Source: a virus
IMG/VR virus record: IMGVR_UViG_3300008107_000735
Coordinates: 1-20,255 of that record
DNA length: 20,255 nt
Strand: one strand, 5' to 3'
In this document: one piece after another, positions 2,236 through 17,879 of the stretch
How the letters are laid out: each line of letters begins with the position of its first letter
Position numbering within the stretch: position 1 is the stretch's first letter
Program-made: the position numbers and the translations under genes
Notes under the pieces: generated by a model
What the model saw: the letters and a program-made list of their open reading frames with translations, nothing else
What the model was told of the DNA's origin: nothing
Database searches by the model: none

Positions 2236-2571
2236 TTAGTTTATGTTTATAGTTGGTTCTGGAACTGCTTTAATGTTCTGTTCTTTTTTATAATTCTTGT
2301 AGACCGCTCTCACAAACTCCCCAAGTACACGCTCAAACATTTGCGGTGCTGTTTCGGGGTTAATTATTTTAGGCTTGTTTACCTTGTCGGATATGCCCGT
2401 GTAAAGCGGATTGGCTACACTATCTGGATAAGGTGCGCTTGTCAATTGCTGCACCATTACACGGCTCACCTCTTGGATGTTTGTGTCTTTGATCTGCAAT
2501 TTGATCGTAGTCTTTTGAGCAAATGCCACAGAGACTATCAATGTGGCTATGAGTGTTAGTAGTGTTTTCAT
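2236..2571 (-). CDS. Small exported protein of unknown function
   Basis: The 111-aa product starts with a classic Sec signal peptide: a Lys at position 2, a hydrophobic core to about residue 15, then AFA|Q with cleavage expected after Ala18 and Gln at +1, the pattern usual in Bacteroidota. The mature part (about 93 residues) is polar, with no Cys, no further membrane segment and a helical stretch near FERVLGEFVRAVYKNYKK (83-100). It lies between the large exported fibre-like gene (1 nt upstream) and the membrane-protein genes of the lysis region. Function unknown; periplasmic or outer-surface location is inferred from the signal only. A periplasmic partner of the lysis or fibre genes is possible. 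Confidence 0.6.
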   Translation of the reverse strand: MKTLLTLIATLIVSVAFAQKTTIKLQIKDTNIQEVSRVMVQQLTSAPYPDSVANPLYTGISDKVNKPKIINPETAPQMFERVLGEFVRAVYKNYKKEQNIKAVPEPTININ

Positions 2572-2572
2572 G

Positions 2573-4417
2573 TTAAAATCCTCTGTATCCGTTTGAAGTT
2601 ATGTAAATCGTTCCGCTCGTCATTGTTGTAGGTATCAAAAAGTTAGTAATCATATTTGCTATACCTCTTAATGGGTTAGGAAAAGTAATTATAGTTGATT
2701 GCGGAATACCTGACGATCTAAAGTGTTGTTGGTATAATATTCTATACATGGTCGTTCCCGTGTAAGCTACCGATGGGACTACGTTTGAACCTCCAATTGT
2801 TAAGGCAAAATTGAAAGTAGTTGCAGAGCCTACCGAGGTGACGTAATAGACTGTATTTGTTGATACTCCCGTACCTGCTGCCAACGCTGTGAATACAACC
2901 GCGTCACCTATTTTCAAGTCATGCGAAGTTGATGTAGTGCATAACCCCGTTGTAATGGCAATAGACGAAACTGTCAACGCTCCGTCTAATATCCATGCAA
3001 CCCCACCAGTACCTAGCGCGTCCGTTGATATTACTAATTGACTTATATAATTTCTAACGCTTGCCGTTCCCGATGCTGGAACAAATTGCTGCACCGTTGT
3101 CGTACTTGCAACCGTTGAAAAGTTGAAAGCATAATCTAATTCGGCTGTTGAACTTTGTTTAATAATTAATTGCTGACCTGATGTTACACCAACGTCTGAA
3201 GCCTCACCTGCCACCAATGTATTATCCTGTGTAGCTATGGTTGTAGGAACTACCCTTGCACCAATCCTTACTGGGTTTCCTGTTGATGCAGTTGAATGAG
3301 CAGTTTGTCCACCTGTTAATGTCGTACTTGCTACCGTTGCCGTTACAGTTCCTGAAACTGGCTGTGTAGCCAAAGCAACTCCTCGCATAATCTCAACGGG
3401 TAAGGCTGCGCCTACGTGCATAGGCTTAACATCTTGAATCGCTACATCTGTATTTGCATAATGCGAAACGCTGATTAATCCAATTGTCCAAGTGGTTGCG
3501 GATGGCGCTGTTGATCCGTTGGCAATTCTTATTTGAAGTCTTAGATTCTTATCATCTGGAATATTTTCGTTTCTATTTGCTCTAATTGTTTGCTGAATTG
3601 TGGTGGCGCTGGCCACAAGTTGATCGGCAAAGGTTGAAATAAGATCGTTACCAGTAATTATAGCCATGTGTCCCGGTGAGGCGGTCGTATTAATCGTTGC
3701 TGCGGTTACGCCCGTTGCCCATCCATTTCTTTGAGTGTCAAAGTTAGCGCTTGTAGGAGTTGCACCAGTGTAATGAAGTTGGTAGTAATTCCAACCAAAT
3801 GCCGAACAAGTACCAGTGCCTGCGGCAAATCCTGAAACTGTAAACGTAATGTTGTCACCGCTTACCGATGCGATAGGATAACGACCAGATAAGAATGTTC
3901 CCGTTCCTGAAAACAGTCCTAAGTACATTGATTGCCCCACGTTTTCGGCTGTGAACCCGTGACCACTTGGAAATGTTACTACTATTACCGTGGCCGAGCT
4001 TATGGTATAGGCAAGCCCGTCACCTATTACGTCAACCAGTTCGACAAAAAAGTTATTGTTTGCGTTACGTTGTGATAGCGTTGAACGCGCTCTTAATCGA
4101 ATGCCTCCTATCCAAGATTCATTTGATCGTATAATTGTTTCACTTCTTGCGGTTGTACCTGCTAAAATTACAAGATTACCACCTGTCTGATCTACATCCA
4201 TACCAGCACCTATACCACCTACAATAGTACCCCAGTCTGAATCTACCGAGTTGGAAAGAGCCTTAGTAAATCCGATTCGGTCAATGTCTTGAGGTATCTG
4301 CCTGACTAACATTGCAGACTCATCGCCCTGTGGTGTTGTCGAAAGTTTAGGCGCACCGTTGTAAGGCTGTGATAATGCAGCCGTTGAAATAAGTAAAAAG
4401 AAAAATATTTTTTTCAT
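2573..4417 (-). CDS. Large exported fibre-like beta protein
   Basis: The 614-aa product begins with a Sec signal peptide (Lys-Lys, Phe/Leu/Ile core, LS|Q with cleavage after about residue 16). The rest is rich in Thr, Ser, Gly, Val and Ile with almost no charged clusters, as in phage fibres and appendage proteins. Segments like SGHGFTAENVGQ (151-162) and SHDLKIGDAVVF (about 497-508) look like repeated beta modules, and a PVSGTVTATV stretch links them. The composition and the position behind the tip-protein genes suggest a virion-surface adhesin or fibre, but the signal peptide instead predicts export by the host. It is 3 nt from the 653-aa fibre-like gene and 1 nt from the 111-aa gene. No catalytic motif is seen. 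Confidence 0.65.
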   Translation of the reverse strand: MKKIFFFLLISTAALSQPYNGAPKLSTTPQGDESAMLVRQIPQDIDRIGFTKALSNSVDSDWGTIVGGIGAGMDVDQTGGNLVILAGTTARSETIIRSNESWIGGIRLRARSTLSQRNANNNFFVELVDVIGDGLAYTISSATVIVVTFPSGHGFTAENVGQSMYLGLFSGTGTFLSGRYPIASVSGDNITFTVSGFAAGTGTCSAFGWNYYQLHYTGATPTSANFDTQRNGWATGVTAATINTTASPGHMAIITGNDLISTFADQLVASATTIQQTIRANRNENIPDDKNLRLQIRIANGSTAPSATTWTIGLISVSHYANTDVAIQDVKPMHVGAALPVEIMRGVALATQPVSGTVTATVASTTLTGGQTAHSTASTGNPVRIGARVVPTTIATQDNTLVAGEASDVGVTSGQQLIIKQSSTAELDYAFNFSTVASTTTVQQFVPASGTASVRNYISQLVISTDALGTGGVAWILDGALTVSSIAITTGLCTTSTSHDLKIGDAVVFTALAAGTGVSTNTVYYVTSVGSATTFNFALTIGGSNVVPSVAYTGTTMYRILYQQHFRSSGIPQSTIITFPNPLRGIANMITNFLIPTTMTSGTIYITSNGYRGF

Positions 4418-4420
4418 TTG

Positions 4421-6382
4421 TTAGTTAGTTATAATCCATCGTCCATCAATTCGCTCCATGTGACATGGAACGTTATAAAGTAATTCAGTTACCACCGTCA
4501 CCCGATCTGCTAGGTAAACTGTCGCGCCAGTGAAACTCCACACTCTTGTATCTTCTGTGTTATAAAATTTCATTACGTCACCATTAGCACCCGTTGGAAT
4601 TGTTATCACTCGGTTAGTAGAAGCTACCCCGTCTAAAATATTGTGAACCCCGTTTAGTGTGGCTGTGAAATTTGCGTCCGTTGCGTTGGCTACAAGTGTG
4701 GTAGGTGCGTAGTATGTACCGCCACCACCTGCTGTTAAATCATAAGTAGTACCTCCAGGAACTCTCCACATTGGTAAAAATGTAGATGGATCAGTGTAGA
4801 AGAAAGCACCTGCTGTTGGATTACCTGTTGGCGCGGCTGTGGCTACACCAACAAACATTCCTTTTTGCATTGATTGAAAGTTTACCGTTGGAAGACTTAT
4901 AAGTGATAAATTACCATTGACACCCGTACCCGATTTTTCCCCTATTCCTAAGTAAACATTACCACTACTTCCATTTCCACCGGAAACAGACGCACTATAA
5001 ATTTGGACATCACCAGTAGATCCACCACTTCTAGGGCCTGATCTAAACCATGCAGCCGATCCAGCATTTGATTGAAATATTGCATTACCTGTATTACCTT
5101 GAAATATAGCATCTCCACCAGTAGAGCTTTGTACCTGAAAAGACCCACCCGATTTAACATCTATAATTAATCCAACATTAGTTGCACTTCCTGTTGCAGA
5201 TATTGTTCTTGTTGATCCAGATAAACTTGTTCCTAAATTTAGGTTACCTGTAGCATCAGCAAATACTCCACTTGGTACAGCATTAGTACCATTGCTCATC
5301 ATCAACTCGTTGTTAGCTGCTGTGTTGGTTAAAAAAGAAAATGGTGACCAACCTGTACCATTATGAAAATAAGGTACGTTGGTGTCTACTGTCAACATTC
5401 CGTTTACAGGAGTTGTGATAGATGCTCTAGTAGCCTCTGTGAGTTTTAAAGCAAGCGTTGAACTGGTTAAATCCAATAAAGCACTTGTAGCAGGTGAAGA
5501 TGTGCCTATGCCAAGCTGTCCACTTGAATTTAATGTCATTTTTTCTGCAACACCCACTCCAGTTCCAAATTTAATTTTACCCGAAGGAGTTGCAAAAGCA
5601 ATGTCATCTACGCTATACATATAAGCAGTTGATGATGTGATAACACCAAATGATCCGCTAGCAGAGCCCGCTTTCCCAAAGTCAACAGTTTGACCTATAC
5701 TATTTTTTGCTTGGAAAAAAGAATACCCAGAATTAGACCCACACTCAACCCTTACAACCGCATCAGATGACGTTTTATTTACATGAATACGTGCATCAGT
5801 ATCGGGGGTAGTTCCTACACCTAAATTTTTGTTTGTGTTATCCCAAATAAGATTAGAATCATCCCCTATCGTAGTCCCTGATGTTGCAAATGTTACACGC
5901 CCAGAGGTGAGGCCAGAGATGCCACCACCTCCACCACTTCCAGCAATATTTCGTACCTGAAAACTTGTTCCATCATACCATAACACTTTAGACTCGTTTG
6001 CTAAAATATCTCCTGTTGCCAGATCGGTAGTAACGCTTTTCTTTAATGACTTTGCGCCTAGCGGAGAGCCGGACGATCCGGTTATGTTGATTGTCGAAGC
6101 TCCTGAATTAGCGTTTAGAAATTGAACTGGTACAGTTAGTCCAAATAAATAAGACGTGACGTAAGGTATTGTTACCGTGTATGTGTTCGTTCCGACTGCT
6201 ATAAACGGTTGTATTCTTGACTCCTTACTGTCTGTGATCTGGTCGTTAATCAGCGAGTGATTAGCGCGGGTAACGTTTGTTGAATTACGGATTAAGTTAT
6301 TCGTGTTCGTCTTTATCGTTGCGTCAGGTGTCTGAGCAAACAATGAAAGAGGAAGGAATAAAAGGAAAAGAAGTTTTTTCAT
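4421..6382 (-). CDS. Tail-fibre-like protein with Sec signal peptide
   Basis: The 653-aa product has a strong signal peptide (MKKLLFLLFL..., FA|Q, cleavage after residue 16), then a Thr/Asn/Ser-rich region, a Gly linker at 147-154 and a long repetitive beta region. Two copies of a LGVGTTPD/LGIGTSSP motif (187-194, 290-297), an FHNGTGW motif (339-345) and short FQxN repeats near 427-439 (GDAIFQGN, GNAIFQSN) are typical of trimeric tail fibres. The C-terminus (about 555-653) looks like a separate globular domain, possibly the receptor-binding tip. No chaperone/autoprotease motif was recognised. The signal peptide is unusual for a virion fibre, which is normally assembled in the cytoplasm. Confidence 0.72.
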   Translation of the reverse strand: MKKLLFLLFLPLSLFAQTPDATIKTNTNNLIRNSTNVTRANHSLINDQITDSKESRIQPFIAVGTNTYTVTIPYVTSYLFGLTVPVQFLNANSGASTINITGSSGSPLGAKSLKKSVTTDLATGDILANESKVLWYDGTSFQVRNIAGSGGGGGISGLTSGRVTFATSGTTIGDDSNLIWDNTNKNLGVGTTPDTDARIHVNKTSSDAVVRVECGSNSGYSFFQAKNSIGQTVDFGKAGSASGSFGVITSSTAYMYSVDDIAFATPSGKIKFGTGVGVAEKMTLNSSGQLGIGTSSPATSALLDLTSSTLALKLTEATRASITTPVNGMLTVDTNVPYFHNGTGWSPFSFLTNTAANNELMMSNGTNAVPSGVFADATGNLNLGTSLSGSTRTISATGSATNVGLIIDVKSGGSFQVQSSTGGDAIFQGNTGNAIFQSNAGSAAWFRSGPRSGGSTGDVQIYSASVSGGNGSSGNVYLGIGEKSGTGVNGNLSLISLPTVNFQSMQKGMFVGVATAAPTGNPTAGAFFYTDPSTFLPMWRVPGGTTYDLTAGGGGTYYAPTTLVANATDANFTATLNGVHNILDGVASTNRVITIPTGANGDVMKFYNTEDTRVWSFTGATVYLADRVTVVTELLYNVPCHMERIDGRWIITN

Positions 6383-6389
6383 GAAGTAT

Positions 6390-6833
6390 TTAATTGTTTA
6401 GAAATAATTCATCAATGAGTGCGTTTCTAAAAGAATCCCTTTTGTATTCATAGTAATAGGAGCCAGAGTTCATTATGGAAAATGTCAATGTATGCTTTCT
6501 GTTTAGCAACGCATGACCCAATTCGTGCATTACCAACCTTTCCACAAAAATTGTATCTCCATCAGTAAGGAATTTATCATACTGTTTTTTGTTTATGAGA
6601 ACAACTATTTGATCTCCTACCATTTGAACTTCTCCAAGATTTGACGGGTCAACTGCAAGGTCATCTACAATTGCAATCAAATTGCTTTTTTGTAATTCGA
6701 CTCCTCTTTTCTCACCCTCTTGATAGAATTTATCTACAGATTGCTTTAATAAAGGATCGATTTTAAACTCGACCTCTTGATCAAAAGAATCGCATGAAAC
6801 GAAAAGCAAGAAAGCAAACAATACTTTTTTCAT
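6390..6833 (-). CDS. Putative lipoprotein zinc metallopeptidase (HELGH)
   Basis: The 147-aa product starts with a lipoprotein-type signal (KK, hydrophobic core, LLFVSC with the lipidated Cys at 14). Residues 103-107 are HELGH, the HExxH zinc-binding motif, followed by His114 (third-ligand candidate, spaced one residue further than in classical metzincins) and a SIMN Met-turn-like motif at 119-122. The set resembles small Bacteroidota matrixin/metzincin-like lipoproteins. It would sit in the periplasm or on the outer membrane, with an unknown substrate. It lies within the fibre genes, 1 nt after the 197-aa fibre gene and 7 nt before the 653-aa fibre gene, so it could process fibres, receptor or cell-envelope proteins, or act during lysogeny. 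Activity is inferred from motifs only. Confidence 0.7.
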   Translation of the reverse strand: MKKVLFAFLLFVSCDSFDQEVEFKIDPLLKQSVDKFYQEGEKRGVELQKSNLIAIVDDLAVDPSNLGEVQMVGDQIVVLINKKQYDKFLTDGDTIFVERLVMHELGHALLNRKHTLTFSIMNSGSYYYEYKRDSFRNALIDELFLNN

Positions 6834-6834
6834 T

Positions 6835-7428
6835 TTAGTCAGTATAGAATCTAATTGCGTCTAAATTAACTGAAGGCACTACACCTGTTATTCCGTTGTA
6901 TTGTATGTTTCCATTACTTAAAATTTGTAAATTTGAGAATGCTCTTGCAGAACCATTGTAGTACTCAATAGGAAATAGAAGGTCATGAACTGGCCTATAT
7001 CCAGCCGGTAATGTGCCAATAATAAGCGTGCCTCCAGTAACGTTTGTTGGATTTGTCCAAACCTGTCCTTTTAAAGCAACCTCTCCAAAATTATTTTTTC
7101 TGTACTTAGCTTGAAAATTTGCAGTTGTCCAGGGTGCTGTGTAGGTTAAATTTGACCACGCTTCAATAGCAGAATCTGCCTTTAAATCAACCGCTGTCTT
7201 TATCCCTGCCTGACTAACCGCCCCGTCCGCATTTGATGCGGCTAAATTTGCGTATAGCTTTGTTGCTCCCACAACTGTCGGGCTTGCTATCTTGTCAATG
7301 TTCAGTTTGCTATCAATAGCGTCAACCAACATATTGCCCACCCTTGTTGCCGTGTTTGCGCCCGGTGCTGTTTCGTTTTTTATTACGTTTGCGTCCGTAG
7401 TTAATTGTGCGTCCGTTCTTGTTGCCAT
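6835..7428 (-). CDS. Short tail fibre / receptor-binding tip protein
   Basis: The 197-aa product has an N-terminal part with the ANTATRVGNMLVD motif (about 24-36), seen in attachment regions of Bacteroidota phage fibres, then an ASNADGAVSQAGIKTAV link. The C-terminal part from about 92 (WSNLTYTAPW) carries FQAKYRKNNFGEVALKG and TLPAGYRPVHDLLFP, a motif set typical of beta-sandwich tip/knob domains that bind host saccharide in many phages. There is no signal peptide, unlike the genes that follow. It starts 1 nt after the stop of the tip protein gene. The domain roles are from motif resemblance; the receptor is unknown. Confidence 0.72.
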   Translation of the reverse strand: MATRTDAQLTTDANVIKNETAPGANTATRVGNMLVDAIDSKLNIDKIASPTVVGATKLYANLAASNADGAVSQAGIKTAVDLKADSAIEAWSNLTYTAPWTTANFQAKYRKNNFGEVALKGQVWTNPTNVTGGTLIIGTLPAGYRPVHDLLFPIEYYNGSARAFSNLQILSNGNIQYNGITGVVPSVNLDAIRFYTD

Positions 7429-7429
7429 G

Positions 7430-8329
7430 TTAAATAATGTTTCGTATCAAAGTATTTTTTCTGCTTAACCACACCTTGCCAAACTGCCAAGGGTTTCTTT
7501 TGTCGGGGTTGCTGCGCTCGTATCCCTCGGTAACCGTCCACTCAAAGCCATCGATTGAAACCGATCCTCGTACCGCATGAGCTAAAGCCAATTGAATCTT
7601 ATTGTGCATGTAGTCGGGCATCATGTATACCGTCATGTATTGCTGAAGGCTCAAGATTACTGACGTGTTGATAACCTTTGAATTGCTCAATTGCAAAGAT
7701 GACTGACTCGTATTGTTGCGCTGCTCGAAGAACCTACAAGGGATTCTTAAATTGAAGTAATTCCCATTGTTCGGGTAATTCAACCCTGCAAAATTAGACT
7801 GTGAGCCAAAGTTGCCGATTGATTTATACAGGATAAGGAATGTCCCGTAAGCCGGATTCGTCTTTATCTGAGTACTGAATTTTACTAAATCAGATTTGTA
7901 CAAGTAAGTAAGCGATTCGCCAAGAAAAGAGCCATCAAATGTCGCATCAAATGATTCAACGTCACCGCGTAAAATATAAAACTTGAAGTAGGTATCTTCA
8001 CTTGTAAGTAAAGACATATCAAAAGTTAGATCGTAATGAGCGTATCCGGTTTGAAGTGTTTTCGTGAATGACTTGAAATCTACTAGCGTTCCGTTTACGT
8101 CATCAATTCTTAACCAGTACTTGTTATCCGTGTCGACTTCGTTGCTTACCTGTAACTTTATTGTATCGGTGATTGTGAACTCCTGAAAAAAGCATTTGTG
8201 ATCGATAAACGCGTTTGCCCGTTCGTTGTATGTCTCTGATGACATAGGCCAGAATTGAATCGGTAGCGCGTCTGAAACATTCATTATTACAAAGGTAATT
8301 ATTATTCCTAAAAATGGAAATTTATTCAT
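7430..8329 (-). CDS. Tail-tip/baseplate-associated protein
   Basis: The 299-aa product resembles proteins that follow the tape measure and tip genes in Bacteroidota siphophages: an N-terminal domain with FQEFTITDTIKLQVSN, a Phe/Tyr-rich middle and a C-terminal domain with LPRY-like YMTVYMMPDYMHNKIQLALAH and a KVWLSRKN end. The likely place is the tail tip. The frame is open back to 8401, but that start would overlap the upstream gene by 80 nt. The ATG at 8329 gives an 8-nt overlap (ATGAATAA), matching other junctions here, so it is preferred. From this start the first 20 residues are hydrophobic (FLGIIITFVIM) and could act as a signal peptide; a start at 8284 (MNVSDA) would remove this. The function is by context. 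Confidence 0.62.
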   Translation of the reverse strand: MNKFPFLGIIITFVIMNVSDALPIQFWPMSSETYNERANAFIDHKCFFQEFTITDTIKLQVSNEVDTDNKYWLRIDDVNGTLVDFKSFTKTLQTGYAHYDLTFDMSLLTSEDTYFKFYILRGDVESFDATFDGSFLGESLTYLYKSDLVKFSTQIKTNPAYGTFLILYKSIGNFGSQSNFAGLNYPNNGNYFNLRIPCRFFEQRNNTSQSSLQLSNSKVINTSVILSLQQYMTVYMMPDYMHNKIQLALAHAVRGSVSIDGFEWTVTEGYERSNPDKRNPWQFGKVWLSRKNTLIRNII

Positions 8330-10709
8330 ATTGGGACTCGTAGAAATCCTCGTAATACCTAGTAGGGCTATCGTCAACAAAGTCAGGAACCACAATATCA
8401 AACGGCTCTTTTGGCCATGCTATCAACTTGACTAGACCTGTCCCAATTTGGTACTCAAGAGATTTTATAAAGAACTTTTTGAAATCGGCCTCGGTCTGGC
8501 TTATTCCTATGCACCTGTTTTTGTTGTCTCGTATCAATTTGTAATGATCCCATGTCATGAAATGGTTAATCTCATAAGGCATTGGGATAAACAAAAAGTC
8601 GCTTGTTACCGCAAAATTGCCCTTTTCGTCTACAAAAGTACCGTCACCAAGGCAAGAAGTAGACATTAGCGAGGTCATATCAAAGTTCCCCTCGCCAGAT
8701 GCGAACTTAAAAACGCTGCCAATGTAGGACTGAAGGCATCCGTTAAGATAGTTTGCCCAGCGCAAAAAGTTCCTCCCCGGTGTAAGTCGGCTATTGTAGC
8801 GCGTCTCTTTGTTGGTTAGGTTGGTTAGCGTGGTGAAATTCTCGTCTAGTTCCGGGGTGAAACTGCCAGCGCCTAACGATCTCAAGGCTATCACAAAGGT
8901 TTCATCGTCATAGGTGTAGTTCGATGACTTCAATACACCTACCCTTCGAGTCGTTTCGAGCGTCAAAGAAGCCGCTACCCACTTGGAAAACAACGTAATT
9001 TTTTTACCTATACGCCTAAATCGGCTATTATACGTGTGCTTTGTTTGCGGATCGTCAATACCGGAAGCCGTACCCGTTCCGGTCGCGGCCTGACTTTGCC
9101 ATTTGTCGTAACCTATTTCTACCTGATTGAAATGATGCTCGCTGTCATAGGATCGCTTTATTGAATAAACGTTCGAAAGGTTCACCAATGGCGTTCCGTC
9201 ATCGTAAAAATGCTCCTTTCTTTCGACCCTGATAATATCTACCCCGGCCAATTTCTCATAACCAAGTCCAAGGTTATGAATAGGGTTTATCCCTTGCCAC
9301 CATTCTTCAGCAGATTTAAAGAAAGGCTTTGCCGTTAGCGTGTAGCCTCGTATATGAAGCCCTTTGGCGTTTGCTACTAGCGATCCGCAACCTGTAACAC
9401 CGTAAACGCGTGACGTAAACGCGTTACCAAGATATTCAGAATACAAAGAGGATTCGTTGTCGGTTATCCGCTTTGTAATGGCGTCCATTACGTCATGTGT
9501 GAGGAATGCTTTTGTAGTTGTCTGTGGCGTAACCGTCTGGGCTATAACCTTAAAATAAGTCGGGATTGAAACGGCTGAATTTGGAATCGTTATCGTGACT
9601 GTTTGGGTGTTGAACATTCCCTCAGGAAGGAAAACGCACTGATCGGGGAATCCAATAGGATCAAATGTTGGTGTTTTTCTAAGTATCTCTACGGTTTTAT
9701 TTACACCGTGAAAGACTAATGCGGCCTTGTCTGTAAATGATGGCTGCGTGAATACCGTACCAAGTTCACCATAGATAAATATTTCGTCCCCAGCGTTCAG
9801 CGTTATGGTATTTGATAGCGTGAATACAGATGACTCGCTAGTATCGGTTTGGGTAAAAGGAACTACCGCCTCGTTATTCCTTTTGAAATTAAAGTCTACT
9901 TCAGTAACCGGATTGTAAGCCGCGTTAACCGTACAGCTTGCGGAGTCAGGTGGTATTGGCACCTGATTTCCGCTATTAGGAATTGTCCTAGTGTAGACTG
10001 ATGCCTCAATTCTAAAGTCAAAGGTATATTCCCCGGCCTCTAGCATTACCCATTTTGCAATTAATGTAGATGACGATCCGATCAATACCACTGACTTATT
10101 TTGAACCTCGTCTAAGTTTACCGTGTCCGTTTCTACCTGTATGTAAAGGTTATCAACCGCGTTTTGTAGTTGGTTTCTAATTATTGCAGCCGTATCGTTT
10201 AAAAACGAATCGTGTTTTTTTGTGATTACTTGACTAGGCAAAGGCAAGGTAATATCACTAGCAGCCGTCACAGCGTCACCGCTTTCCGTAACTGTTGACT
10301 TTATATTTACCTTGTTCTTGTAGCGTGAAATAAATTTAGTCCAAAAACCATTCTGGGTAAACACCATTTGCAGCATGTGGTCGGTGTCCAAACTTTCCAC
10401 GAACATCGAAACCGCTAGTTGCCCGGTGTATAGTGTTTCAAATGATCCGGTTTCGTCCTCGTCAATCTCTACTAGAATATCTACCTCGGCATCTTGCCCG
10501 TGTAGCTTTTCAACGTTTAATAGCCACGACCTACCACCGTCCTCGGTTCCGTTTGATCCGTAAGCCTGAAAAGAACTTTTGAAATACTCGACCAGAGAAT
10601 GAAATTCAGGATGGCGCTCAAATCCCAAAGTGGATTTTTCCCAGCCGTCAGGCTCTGAAATTACCTTACTACCTTCGACCGCATGTGTAAGCGTGAACTT
10701 GTATATCAT
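8322..10709 (-). CDS. Large tail-tip/baseplate (hub-like) protein
   Basis: The 795-aa product is encoded directly after the tape measure gene, where siphophages place distal-tail and tail-hub proteins. Its N-terminus (MIYKFTLTHAVEGSKVISEPDGW) opens a domain rich in beta predictions with GGRSWLLNVEKL (58-69) and DILVEIDEDE. Long middle and C-terminal regions contain no signal peptide, membrane helix or peptidase motif that I can see. Its ATG overlaps the tape measure stop (ATGA), so synthesis is probably coupled. The most likely role is the initial tail-tip complex on which the tape measure and tail tube assemble. The assignment rests mainly on gene order, length and general similarity to Bacteroidota phage proteins. 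Confidence 0.68.
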   Translation of the reverse strand: MIYKFTLTHAVEGSKVISEPDGWEKSTLGFERHPEFHSLVEYFKSSFQAYGSNGTEDGGRSWLLNVEKLHGQDAEVDILVEIDEDETGSFETLYTGQLAVSMFVESLDTDHMLQMVFTQNGFWTKFISRYKNKVNIKSTVTESGDAVTAASDITLPLPSQVITKKHDSFLNDTAAIIRNQLQNAVDNLYIQVETDTVNLDEVQNKSVVLIGSSSTLIAKWVMLEAGEYTFDFRIEASVYTRTIPNSGNQVPIPPDSASCTVNAAYNPVTEVDFNFKRNNEAVVPFTQTDTSESSVFTLSNTITLNAGDEIFIYGELGTVFTQPSFTDKAALVFHGVNKTVEILRKTPTFDPIGFPDQCVFLPEGMFNTQTVTITIPNSAVSIPTYFKVIAQTVTPQTTTKAFLTHDVMDAITKRITDNESSLYSEYLGNAFTSRVYGVTGCGSLVANAKGLHIRGYTLTAKPFFKSAEEWWQGINPIHNLGLGYEKLAGVDIIRVERKEHFYDDGTPLVNLSNVYSIKRSYDSEHHFNQVEIGYDKWQSQAATGTGTASGIDDPQTKHTYNSRFRRIGKKITLFSKWVAASLTLETTRRVGVLKSSNYTYDDETFVIALRSLGAGSFTPELDENFTTLTNLTNKETRYNSRLTPGRNFLRWANYLNGCLQSYIGSVFKFASGEGNFDMTSLMSTSCLGDGTFVDEKGNFAVTSDFLFIPMPYEINHFMTWDHYKLIRDNKNRCIGISQTEADFKKFFIKSLEYQIGTGLVKLIAWPKEPFDIVVPDFVDDSPTRYYEDFYESQYE

Positions 10710-16309: not shown

Positions 16310-16630
16310 TTAGTAAGGCAAAGCCGTCACTGTCTCAATCGTACGAAGTGCATAGAAATTCACTCCGTCAGTAGAACCTAACAGCGAAATAGTACCTCCC
16401 ACAGTTCCAGAAATCTTCGTCACGTTTACCTGGACTACCGTGTACGTTGCACGCTCTTGGTTGATTCTGCGAGTAGTGATAAAGCTGGTTGCCGTGTTCG
16501 TCACCGTGTCAGTCTGCGGAAATACTCCAGCAGTTGACAACGGATTGAAGAACGGTACTGTTTGCGCGTTAGCAGAAAACGCCAGCAAGGCTACCAAGCC
16601 AGCGATTAAAAATAGTTTCATCTTTTTCAT
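16310..16630 (-). CDS. Small exported protein next to the capsid gene
   Basis: The 106-aa product has a textbook signal peptide (KKMK, core LFLIAGLVALLAF, SANA|Q with cleavage after Ala22 and Gln at +1). The mature part is Thr/Val/Ser-rich and contains VNVTKISGTVGGTISLLGS (68-86) and TDGVNFYAL, a beta-sandwich-like motif of the kind seen in phage surface or fibre proteins. It ends abruptly at ALPY, so the domain may be short. It lies 13 nt after the capsid gene and 13 nt before the connector gene, an unexpected place for an exported protein. It could be a capsid decoration with a vestigial signal, or a cell-envelope protein made late in infection. Its function is unknown. Confidence 0.6.
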   Translation of the reverse strand: MKKMKLFLIAGLVALLAFSANAQTVPFFNPLSTAGVFPQTDTVTNTATSFITTRRINQERATYTVVQVNVTKISGTVGGTISLLGSTDGVNFYALRTIETVTALPY

Positions 16631-16643
16631 TTTCGTTTTTTAA

Positions 16644-17879
16644 TTAGTCAAGTAATGAAATTGCAGCAGCGATGTCGGTTACCTTGGCAAACGCATTCAA
16701 GTTCACGTTACGCACTAACAAGGCAGTACGCTTGCGAGCCTTAATAGTCATCATGTCATTGATGAATTGATTGGCGATGAAGCCCATCTCAACCTCAACG
16801 TCACCCATATTAAACTGCTCACCCCAATTGAAATCACCTACCAACATAGTGTTTGCTGTAGGCAAGGCATGAGGGATAACCTTAATACCGTTCACATTTG
16901 CGGTGCCATCTGGCAACAATTGCGCCCATTCAGGACGGACATAGTGACCGTCTACCGCTTTCTTTATCAACAAAGCGTTAAAGTCAGCGTACGAAACAAT
17001 CGCGGTATTGGCGCGGAAATTGCTTTCGCGGCCTGAGTTGATGCTTTCCTGAACCTTTACAATCAAGTCGTACAAGTTAGGGTCATCAAGAGCCAAGTCA
17101 GGAGCACTATACGTTGGCGCATAATCAAAAATACCTCTGATGTTAGGGGCTACTCCGTTGGCATTCCAAAGGTCTTGATCTTCTTTCAATCGCACGTTAA
17201 TCTCAAGCAATGCCTGAATCTCTCCAGCGATGTAGTCAACATCATTGAACGCCTCAACAGATACAGGCACTTGATCGCCAATCTTTTGAAGGTTCAAAGT
17301 GTACTCTTGCCAAGGGAAAGTAGACTCCGGGAACGCGTTGTTTTCCGCTACCGCTGCCGCTGCCCGTGTAGGTGCTGACTGATCAGTGTAACGGATTACC
17401 CCGTTGCTGTTTGGAGCTACAGGACGTTGACGGAACAAAGACGAAAGAGTAAGTCCACGATACGCAACCTGGCCGATGTCATCCAAGCGCATGGCCTGGG
17501 TGCTGTTGGTTACACTTGCACGTAATACAGGAGCCTTAACAGTCATCTTAATGGTTCTATTTTTGTCACCTGATGCCAACGCTTTCAACTCGTCTTTCTT
17601 TTCTTCCAGCATTTGAGCAATCGATTTGTTTTCGCTGCCACCTTTGCCAGAGATAAACTTTTGTAACTCGATGCCTTGCTTTTCAACTGCCTTTGTCAGC
17701 GTCTCGATAGTGTCGGCTTTGATACCGTTTTTCTCTAAAGTTTCGGCTAACTTTTCGCTGGTAAGCAATCCTTTTGTGGCCTCGCTCACAGCATCTTTTA
17801 CAGAGCTTTCAATCTTTGCCCCGTTCTCTTTTCCTATTTTCTCAAATAGGTCTTGAAATTCTTTCATTTCGATTTCCAT
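16644..17879 (-). CDS. Major capsid protein, HK97 fold
   Basis: The 411-aa product has two parts. Residues 1-100 or so form a charged coiled-coil region (KESV.., KAVEKQGIELQKF, MLEEKKDELKAL) acting as the built-in scaffold (delta domain). From about 110 the HK97-fold body begins (IKMTVKAPVLRAS, VAYRGLTLSSLFRQRPV), with AENNAFPESTFPWQEYTLNLQKIGDQVPVSVEA-type E-loop and spine region (178-210), and a C-terminal part with MLVGDFNWGEQFNMGDVEVEM and KARKRTALLVRN. The delta domain is likely removed by the protease encoded just before it; the exact cut is not visible but should lie near 100-120. The protein builds the icosahedral shell. Confidence 0.94.
   Translation of the reverse strand: MEIEMKEFQDLFEKIGKENGAKIESSVKDAVSEATKGLLTSEKLAETLEKNGIKADTIETLTKAVEKQGIELQKFISGKGGSENKSIAQMLEEKKDELKALASGDKNRTIKMTVKAPVLRASVTNSTQAMRLDDIGQVAYRGLTLSSLFRQRPVAPNSNGVIRYTDQSAPTRAAAAVAENNAFPESTFPWQEYTLNLQKIGDQVPVSVEAFNDVDYIAGEIQALLEINVRLKEDQDLWNANGVAPNIRGIFDYAPTYSAPDLALDDPNLYDLIVKVQESINSGRESNFRANTAIVSYADFNALLIKKAVDGHYVRPEWAQLLPDGTANVNGIKVIPHALPTANTMLVGDFNWGEQFNMGDVEVEMGFIANQFINDMMTIKARKRTALLVRNVNLNAFAKVTDIAAAISLLD

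Follow-up and report, generated by a model that had tools for sequence, protein, structure and literature searches.

The window examined in the present study is the whole contig of an uncultured virus (20,255 bp). Its tailed-phage late genes lie on the minus strand and comprise portal, protease, major capsid, head-tail, tape measure, tail-tip and fibre genes, followed by lysis genes with a CHAP endolysin. The nearest isolates by major capsid protein, at about 33% identity, infect Flavobacterium and Tenacibaculum, so the host of the window phage, as far as it can be read from sequence, is most likely a member of the Bacteroidota. The genes concerned are the following, where a slash marks the predicted cleavage site.

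16644..17879, minus strand: major capsid protein (phrog_10)
16310..16630, minus strand: 106-aa predicted exported protein, signal ANA/Q, directly behind the major capsid gene; not in the earlier sequence-only reading
8322..10709, minus strand: tail-tip protein, 795 aa (phrog_15220), no signal
6835..7428, minus strand: 197-aa fibre, no signal, N-terminal module NETxxGANTAxRVGxxLvD
6390..6833, minus strand: 147-aa predicted lipoprotein, MKKVLFAFLLFVS/CDSFDQE, with the zinc-protease-like motif HELGHALLNRKH...SIMN
4421..6382, minus strand: 653-aa predicted exported fibre/spike, signal FA/Q, variable middle and constant 93-aa C-terminus
2573..4417, minus strand: 614-aa predicted exported fibre, signal LS/Q
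2236..2571, minus strand: 111-aa predicted exported protein, signal AFA/Q

The sequence-only reading had described four consecutive genes behind the tail tip whose products begin with export signals. The four genes (6833-2236, minus strand) were found with the reading frames, lengths and N-termini described, and they are consecutive, but they do not adjoin the tail-tip gene immediately, because a 323-aa gene and the 197-aa gene lie between. For the 323-aa gene (window 7430-8401), the listed TTG start yields a false membrane segment, and its homologue in genome G001 begins at the residue-40 ATG (MNVSDALPIQ...). Besides the lipoprotein, the N-termini read MKKLLFLLFLPLSLFA/QTPD in the 653-aa, MKKIFFFLLISTAALS/QPYN in the 614-aa and MKTLLTLIATLIVSVAFA/QKTT in the 111-aa protein; the claim of Gln at +1 in three products and a lipobox in one thus holds, with three signal-peptidase-I sites and one conserved lipobox.

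The signals were called with a simple heuristic signal-peptide caller, written and calibrated for this analysis, which gives a small bonus for Gln. Among 18 late genes of the window it flagged five, namely these four and the 106-aa gene. The features of Sec export and signal peptidase I (K/R in the N-region, a hydrophobic core and small residues at -3/-1) were present, and Gln stands at +1 in all four of the 653-, 614-, 111- and 106-aa proteins. Of composition-matched random N-termini the caller flagged 0.8%, while calls that also had Gln at +1 made up 0.05%; by our own arithmetic, the binomial chance of 5/18 is about 1e-7. As a control, the caller was run on about 50 lambda and T5 late genes, where its calls were limited to lom, Rz and llp, which are all genuine envelope proteins. 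Conserved downstream starts that omit the signals, which the sequence-only reading had named as a refutation, were not found: in the relatives L006 and L013 no start codon other than the signal's ATG occurs within the first 60 codons, hence the choice of start is not an artefact.

Gln at +1 is known as the Q-rule of the Bacteroidetes (PMC5837995, PMC10653852), with a mean of about 71% Gln (PMC5837995). Among 34 distinct signal peptides of fibres and their companions, Gln occupied +1 in 33 and Lys in one, as called by a program that slightly favours Gln. Compared with its closest relative, in G001, the 653-type signal has drifted to 62% identity and the next 44 residues, the mature N-terminus, keep 98%; both sequences stay good signals. 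In the gp88-type signal of the Cellulophaga phages, discussed below, the codon differences are 12 synonymous and 0 nonsynonymous. At the level of the sequences compared, the signals are present, under selection and in compliance with the Q-rule, and export of these proteins is well supported. Type IX secretion was ruled out as the route, since no C-terminal sorting domain was matched by Pfam or NCBIfam profiles.

The sequence-only reading had also called two of the four products fibre-like, which was borne out with outside evidence, namely the shaft and tip homology of the 614-aa protein and a tailspike domain in a homologue of the 653-aa protein. In the 614-aa fibre, residues 17-355 are constant among exported relatives, and the shaft (36-355) matches them at 70-96%. 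The tip (431-614) has 89-94% identity to signal-less fibres (L003, L011) and no match to exported ones. This indicates the transfer of a receptor tip between fibres of the two classes, exported and non-exported. Contigs of unrelated phages with contractile-tail genes (G003, G004, G008) encode the signal-less versions, and a further signal-less homologue is encoded by Microcystis phage Mae-JY24 (XAI95798); both shaft and tip are homologous to signal-less proteins in the tail regions of other phages. A search of 84,980 bacterial genomes with the 614-aa alignment gave no relatives outside viruses, and the AlphaFold model of this fibre was unusable (pLDDT 36). A 148-aa signal-less protein (MATFTIVSEGTPIIPYN...), possibly a chaperone or co-tip, is encoded between the 614-type fibre and the lysis genes in G001, G002, G007 and G014; its gene goes with exported fibres that have the other type of tip, and the window does not contain it.

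The 653-aa protein shows conserved ends of two kinds. Its mature N-terminus (17-60) is common to the siphoviruses (window and G001; 98%) and is of another kind in the myoviruses G009 and G011. The last 93 residues keep 91-98% identity in G001, G009 and G011, 86-98% in most relatives and 60% in G006. The homologue in the myovirus G009 carries the pectate-lyase-type tailspike domain PF12708, above cut-off. The window and Cellulophaga sets show the pattern expected of tail fibres, a conserved docking end with an exchangeable receptor end. The mature N-terminus is probably the virion-docking end, and its dependence on tail type, drawn from few genomes, fits this assignment. We infer that the 653-aa protein may be an adapter, whose N-terminus suits the tail type and whose C-terminus is matched to the constant part at the N-terminal end of the 614-aa fibre. 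A common docking module with the 197-aa fibre was rejected, since an HMM of the 197-aa module scores nothing on the 653-aa protein. Tail type was likewise ruled out as the reason for export, since siphovirus and myovirus tails alike have signal-bearing fibres.

The neighbouring genes give a useful background. The N-terminal module of the 197-aa fibre is common to phi46:1 gp06, an MS/MS virion protein, and this fibre provides a cytoplasmic control within the same operon as the exported genes. The motif of the 147-aa lipoprotein suggests a metzincin-like zinc protease, and a Pfam M54 match was weak and below cut-off. Its homologues have 75-89% identity, and the lipobox Cys is kept in those that cover it. 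Genes for the 197-aa-type fibre and the lipoprotein zinc protease (window 6390-7428) travel together between siphovirus and myovirus genomes (G009, G013); in G009 the pair lies among head and tail genes, apart from the exported fibres. The 111-aa protein has a 79% homologue with a signal in G001, and its match to the PorU N-domain (18.8 bits against a cut-off of 40) was treated as chance.

Since the window phage comes without proteomics, we examined instead Cellulophaga phages with MS/MS-marked proteins in GenBank. Eleven signal-bearing proteins, phi19:1 gp101-104, phi10:1 gp91-94 and phi18:3 gp85-87, are marked as virion proteins by 'experimental MS/MS proteomics analysis', in lists of a kind that can contain co-purified envelope material. 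Phage phi19:1 belongs to the Assiduviridae and phi18:3 to the Pachyviridae; phi19:1 gp101 was called as a lipobox and also reads INA/Q. The only signal-bearing fibre-cassette protein absent from the MS/MS lists is phi10:1 gp95, and the other MS-listed virion proteins tested in these three records (portal, capsid, tail) have no signals. Like the window, the Cellulophaga cassettes (phrog_17619, 11548, 16053) consist of consecutive late signal-bearing fibre or lyase genes with Q-rule sites, conserved in the N-terminal part and variable in the body; in phi10:1 and phi19:1 they lie between the tail and lysis genes. The signal and first residues are nearly identical across phage families and the bodies differ (96-97% vs 22-23% in the clearest gp102 pairs). 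The first cassette protein has a family-specific mature N-terminus, then a 94%-identical segment. Because the near-identical signal-plus-anchor module occurs in unrelated virions, an adapter would be needed if this module docks to them. The pectate-lyase-like body of gp88/gp102 is found signal-less in the virion proteins phi14:2 gp97 (MS/MS) and phi17:2 gp54 (by similarity). Sequence comparison found no homologues of the window fibres in the cassettes. What the two share is architecture, and by this analogy the presence of the window fibres in the virion is moderately supported.

Signal-bearing fibres are a feature of some lineages only, since the listed virion proteins of the MS-characterised phages phi18:1, phi46:1 and phi14:2 are without signals. 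A host constraint as the reason for export was ruled out, because phi18:1 (no signals) and phi18:3 (signals) share the host strain. Furthermore, the isolated phages closest by capsid protein, Flavobacterium snork6-1 and Tenacibaculum JQ, have fibres without signals, which shows that a virion of this type can do without export.

A further exported candidate is the 106-aa protein behind the capsid gene. In its 24 viral relatives a signal was called in 23 (22 of the signal-peptidase-I type and L094 of the lipobox type), and a capsid gene was detected upstream in 23/24. A 12-row alignment of the family shows poor conservation of the signal region relative to the jelly-roll core. The full length of the family is about 150 aa, and the AF2 model of a 150-aa member (pLDDT 76, moderate) matches generic jelly-roll and carbohydrate-binding module (CBM)-like folds, hence a jelly-roll fold is predicted. 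Up to residue 105 the window copy agrees fully with L075; a stretch of 46 residues that L075 and the other relatives have is then missing from it, owing either to an in-frame deletion of 138 bp or to a collapse in the assembly. Sequences L075-L098 form an exported jelly-roll family of about 150 aa that many uncultured phages encode in their head module, and it had no match among 50,697 isolated phage records. It is possible that this family is an exported capsid decoration protein.

Taken together, we consider it rather probable that the 653- and 614-aa proteins are tail fibres which leave the cytoplasm by the Sec route, are processed according to the Q-rule and become part of the virions in the envelope or during lysis. 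They would be the tail fibres, or an adapter and a receptor-binding fibre, of a Bacteroidota siphophage. The fibres would be made with Sec signal peptides and exported, and signal peptidase I would cut them so that Gln becomes the first residue, probably to be converted to pyroglutamate by the host. The exported fibres would fold in the periplasm, and otherwise finished virions would receive them in the envelope or at lysis and not in the cytoplasm, with attachment taking place once lysis lets virions and periplasm mix. The steps that we infer are the cleavage, the location, the order of docking and an assembly at or after lysis. The reading requires a periplasmic fibre to find a cytoplasmic tail, which it leaves unexplained and which was counted against it, as were the signal-less fibres of snork6-1 and JQ, the near-identical module in unrelated Cellulophaga virions, the signal-less 148-aa gene and the possible envelope material in MS/MS lists.

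The sequence-only reading had left a choice between secretion to alter the host surface and capture by virions at exit, and capture fits the data better, given the Cellulophaga MS/MS annotations and the modular build. Its suggestion of a tail-derived surface system found no sign, neither as relatives of the 614-aa fibre outside viruses in the bacterial-genome scan nor as a type IX domain. Export without virion membership nevertheless deserves attention: the fibre-like proteins would be secreted late and act on the cell surface or matrix by receptor masking, superinfection exclusion or digestion of capsule or matrix, and the MS/MS hits would reflect sticking to virions or vesicles. Spike-like enzyme domains would be useful outside virions, lambda Lom is an exported outer-membrane protein encoded right behind the tail-tip gene, and Q-rule signal genes of P. 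gingivalis prophages have been read as envelope modifiers (PMC10367356). We judge this course rather unlikely, because the MS/MS lists of three phages hold 11 signal-bearing fibre-cassette proteins, with phi10:1 gp95 alone missing, and because both the exchange of the 614-aa tip with signal-less virion-type fibres and the tail-type-specific mature N-termini fit virion docking.

A mixed role, in which part of the exported protein is kept on the host surface as adhesin or enzyme and part is captured by virions at exit, agrees with all data, and the neighbouring 147-aa lipoprotein could be surface-anchored; the sorting signal, a type IX C-terminal domain, was not found, and we hold this role to be improbable. 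Least probable is that the signal-like N-termini are unused and the fibres fold in the cytoplasm, uncut or from downstream starts. The cytoplasm is where virion fibres normally fold, but the chance rate of 0.05% with Gln, the survival of the signal properties under sequence drift, the lack of a conserved downstream start and Gln at +1 in 33/34 all speak against it.

In tailed phages, the folding and attachment of fibres are generally assigned to the cytoplasm. The coat proteins of filamentous phages are virion proteins with Sec signals, as proposed for the window set, but they are assembled in the inner membrane during extrusion and the phages are not tailed. Ordinary cytoplasmic fibres and tailspikes, such as the 197-aa fibre of the window and the Mae-JY24 protein (XAI95798), share with the window set the shaft and tip homology, the pectate-lyase spike domain and the position behind the tail tip, whereas their N-terminal module is a different one that begins at Met1, and a signal is absent. 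Lambda Lom has the same position behind the tail-tip gene and an export signal, but it is an outer-membrane barrel, not fibre-like and not a virion protein. Prophages of P. gingivalis have been reported to carry genes with Q-rule signals whose function is unknown, and also capsid proteins whose N-termini resemble signals (PMC10367356); the Q-rule signal genes too are phage genes obeying the host Q-rule, but they were read as envelope modifiers and the link to the virion was not made (PMC10367356). A study of phage diversity-generating retroelements states that the signals found on bacterial target proteins are absent from those of phages (PMC6199706). In the Cellulophaga records, the cassette proteins are annotated as structural protein, tail fibre or pectate lyase, and the export signal is not noted. 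The literature covered, which is incomplete and does not include the 2013 Cellulophaga proteomics paper, yielded no account of tailed phages whose virion fibres are exported.

As a tentative generalisation, held with less confidence than the reading of the two fibres, a class of Bacteroidota tailed phages may be built in two compartments. Heads and tails would be assembled in the cytoplasm; the fibres and spikes, and perhaps also a protein associated with the capsid, would be assembled in the periplasm and be added only once lysis opens the membrane. Receptor tips would be swapped between exported and non-exported fibres. If the export of virion fibres is true, there would be a maturation step outside the cytoplasm and a dependence on host Sec, signal peptidase and glutaminyl cyclase. 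Isolated phages and existing virion MS data would allow a test of it. Such export would also give a period in which fibres of co-infecting phages could mix, and Q-rule phage genes that are now read as host-surface modifiers would get another explanation.
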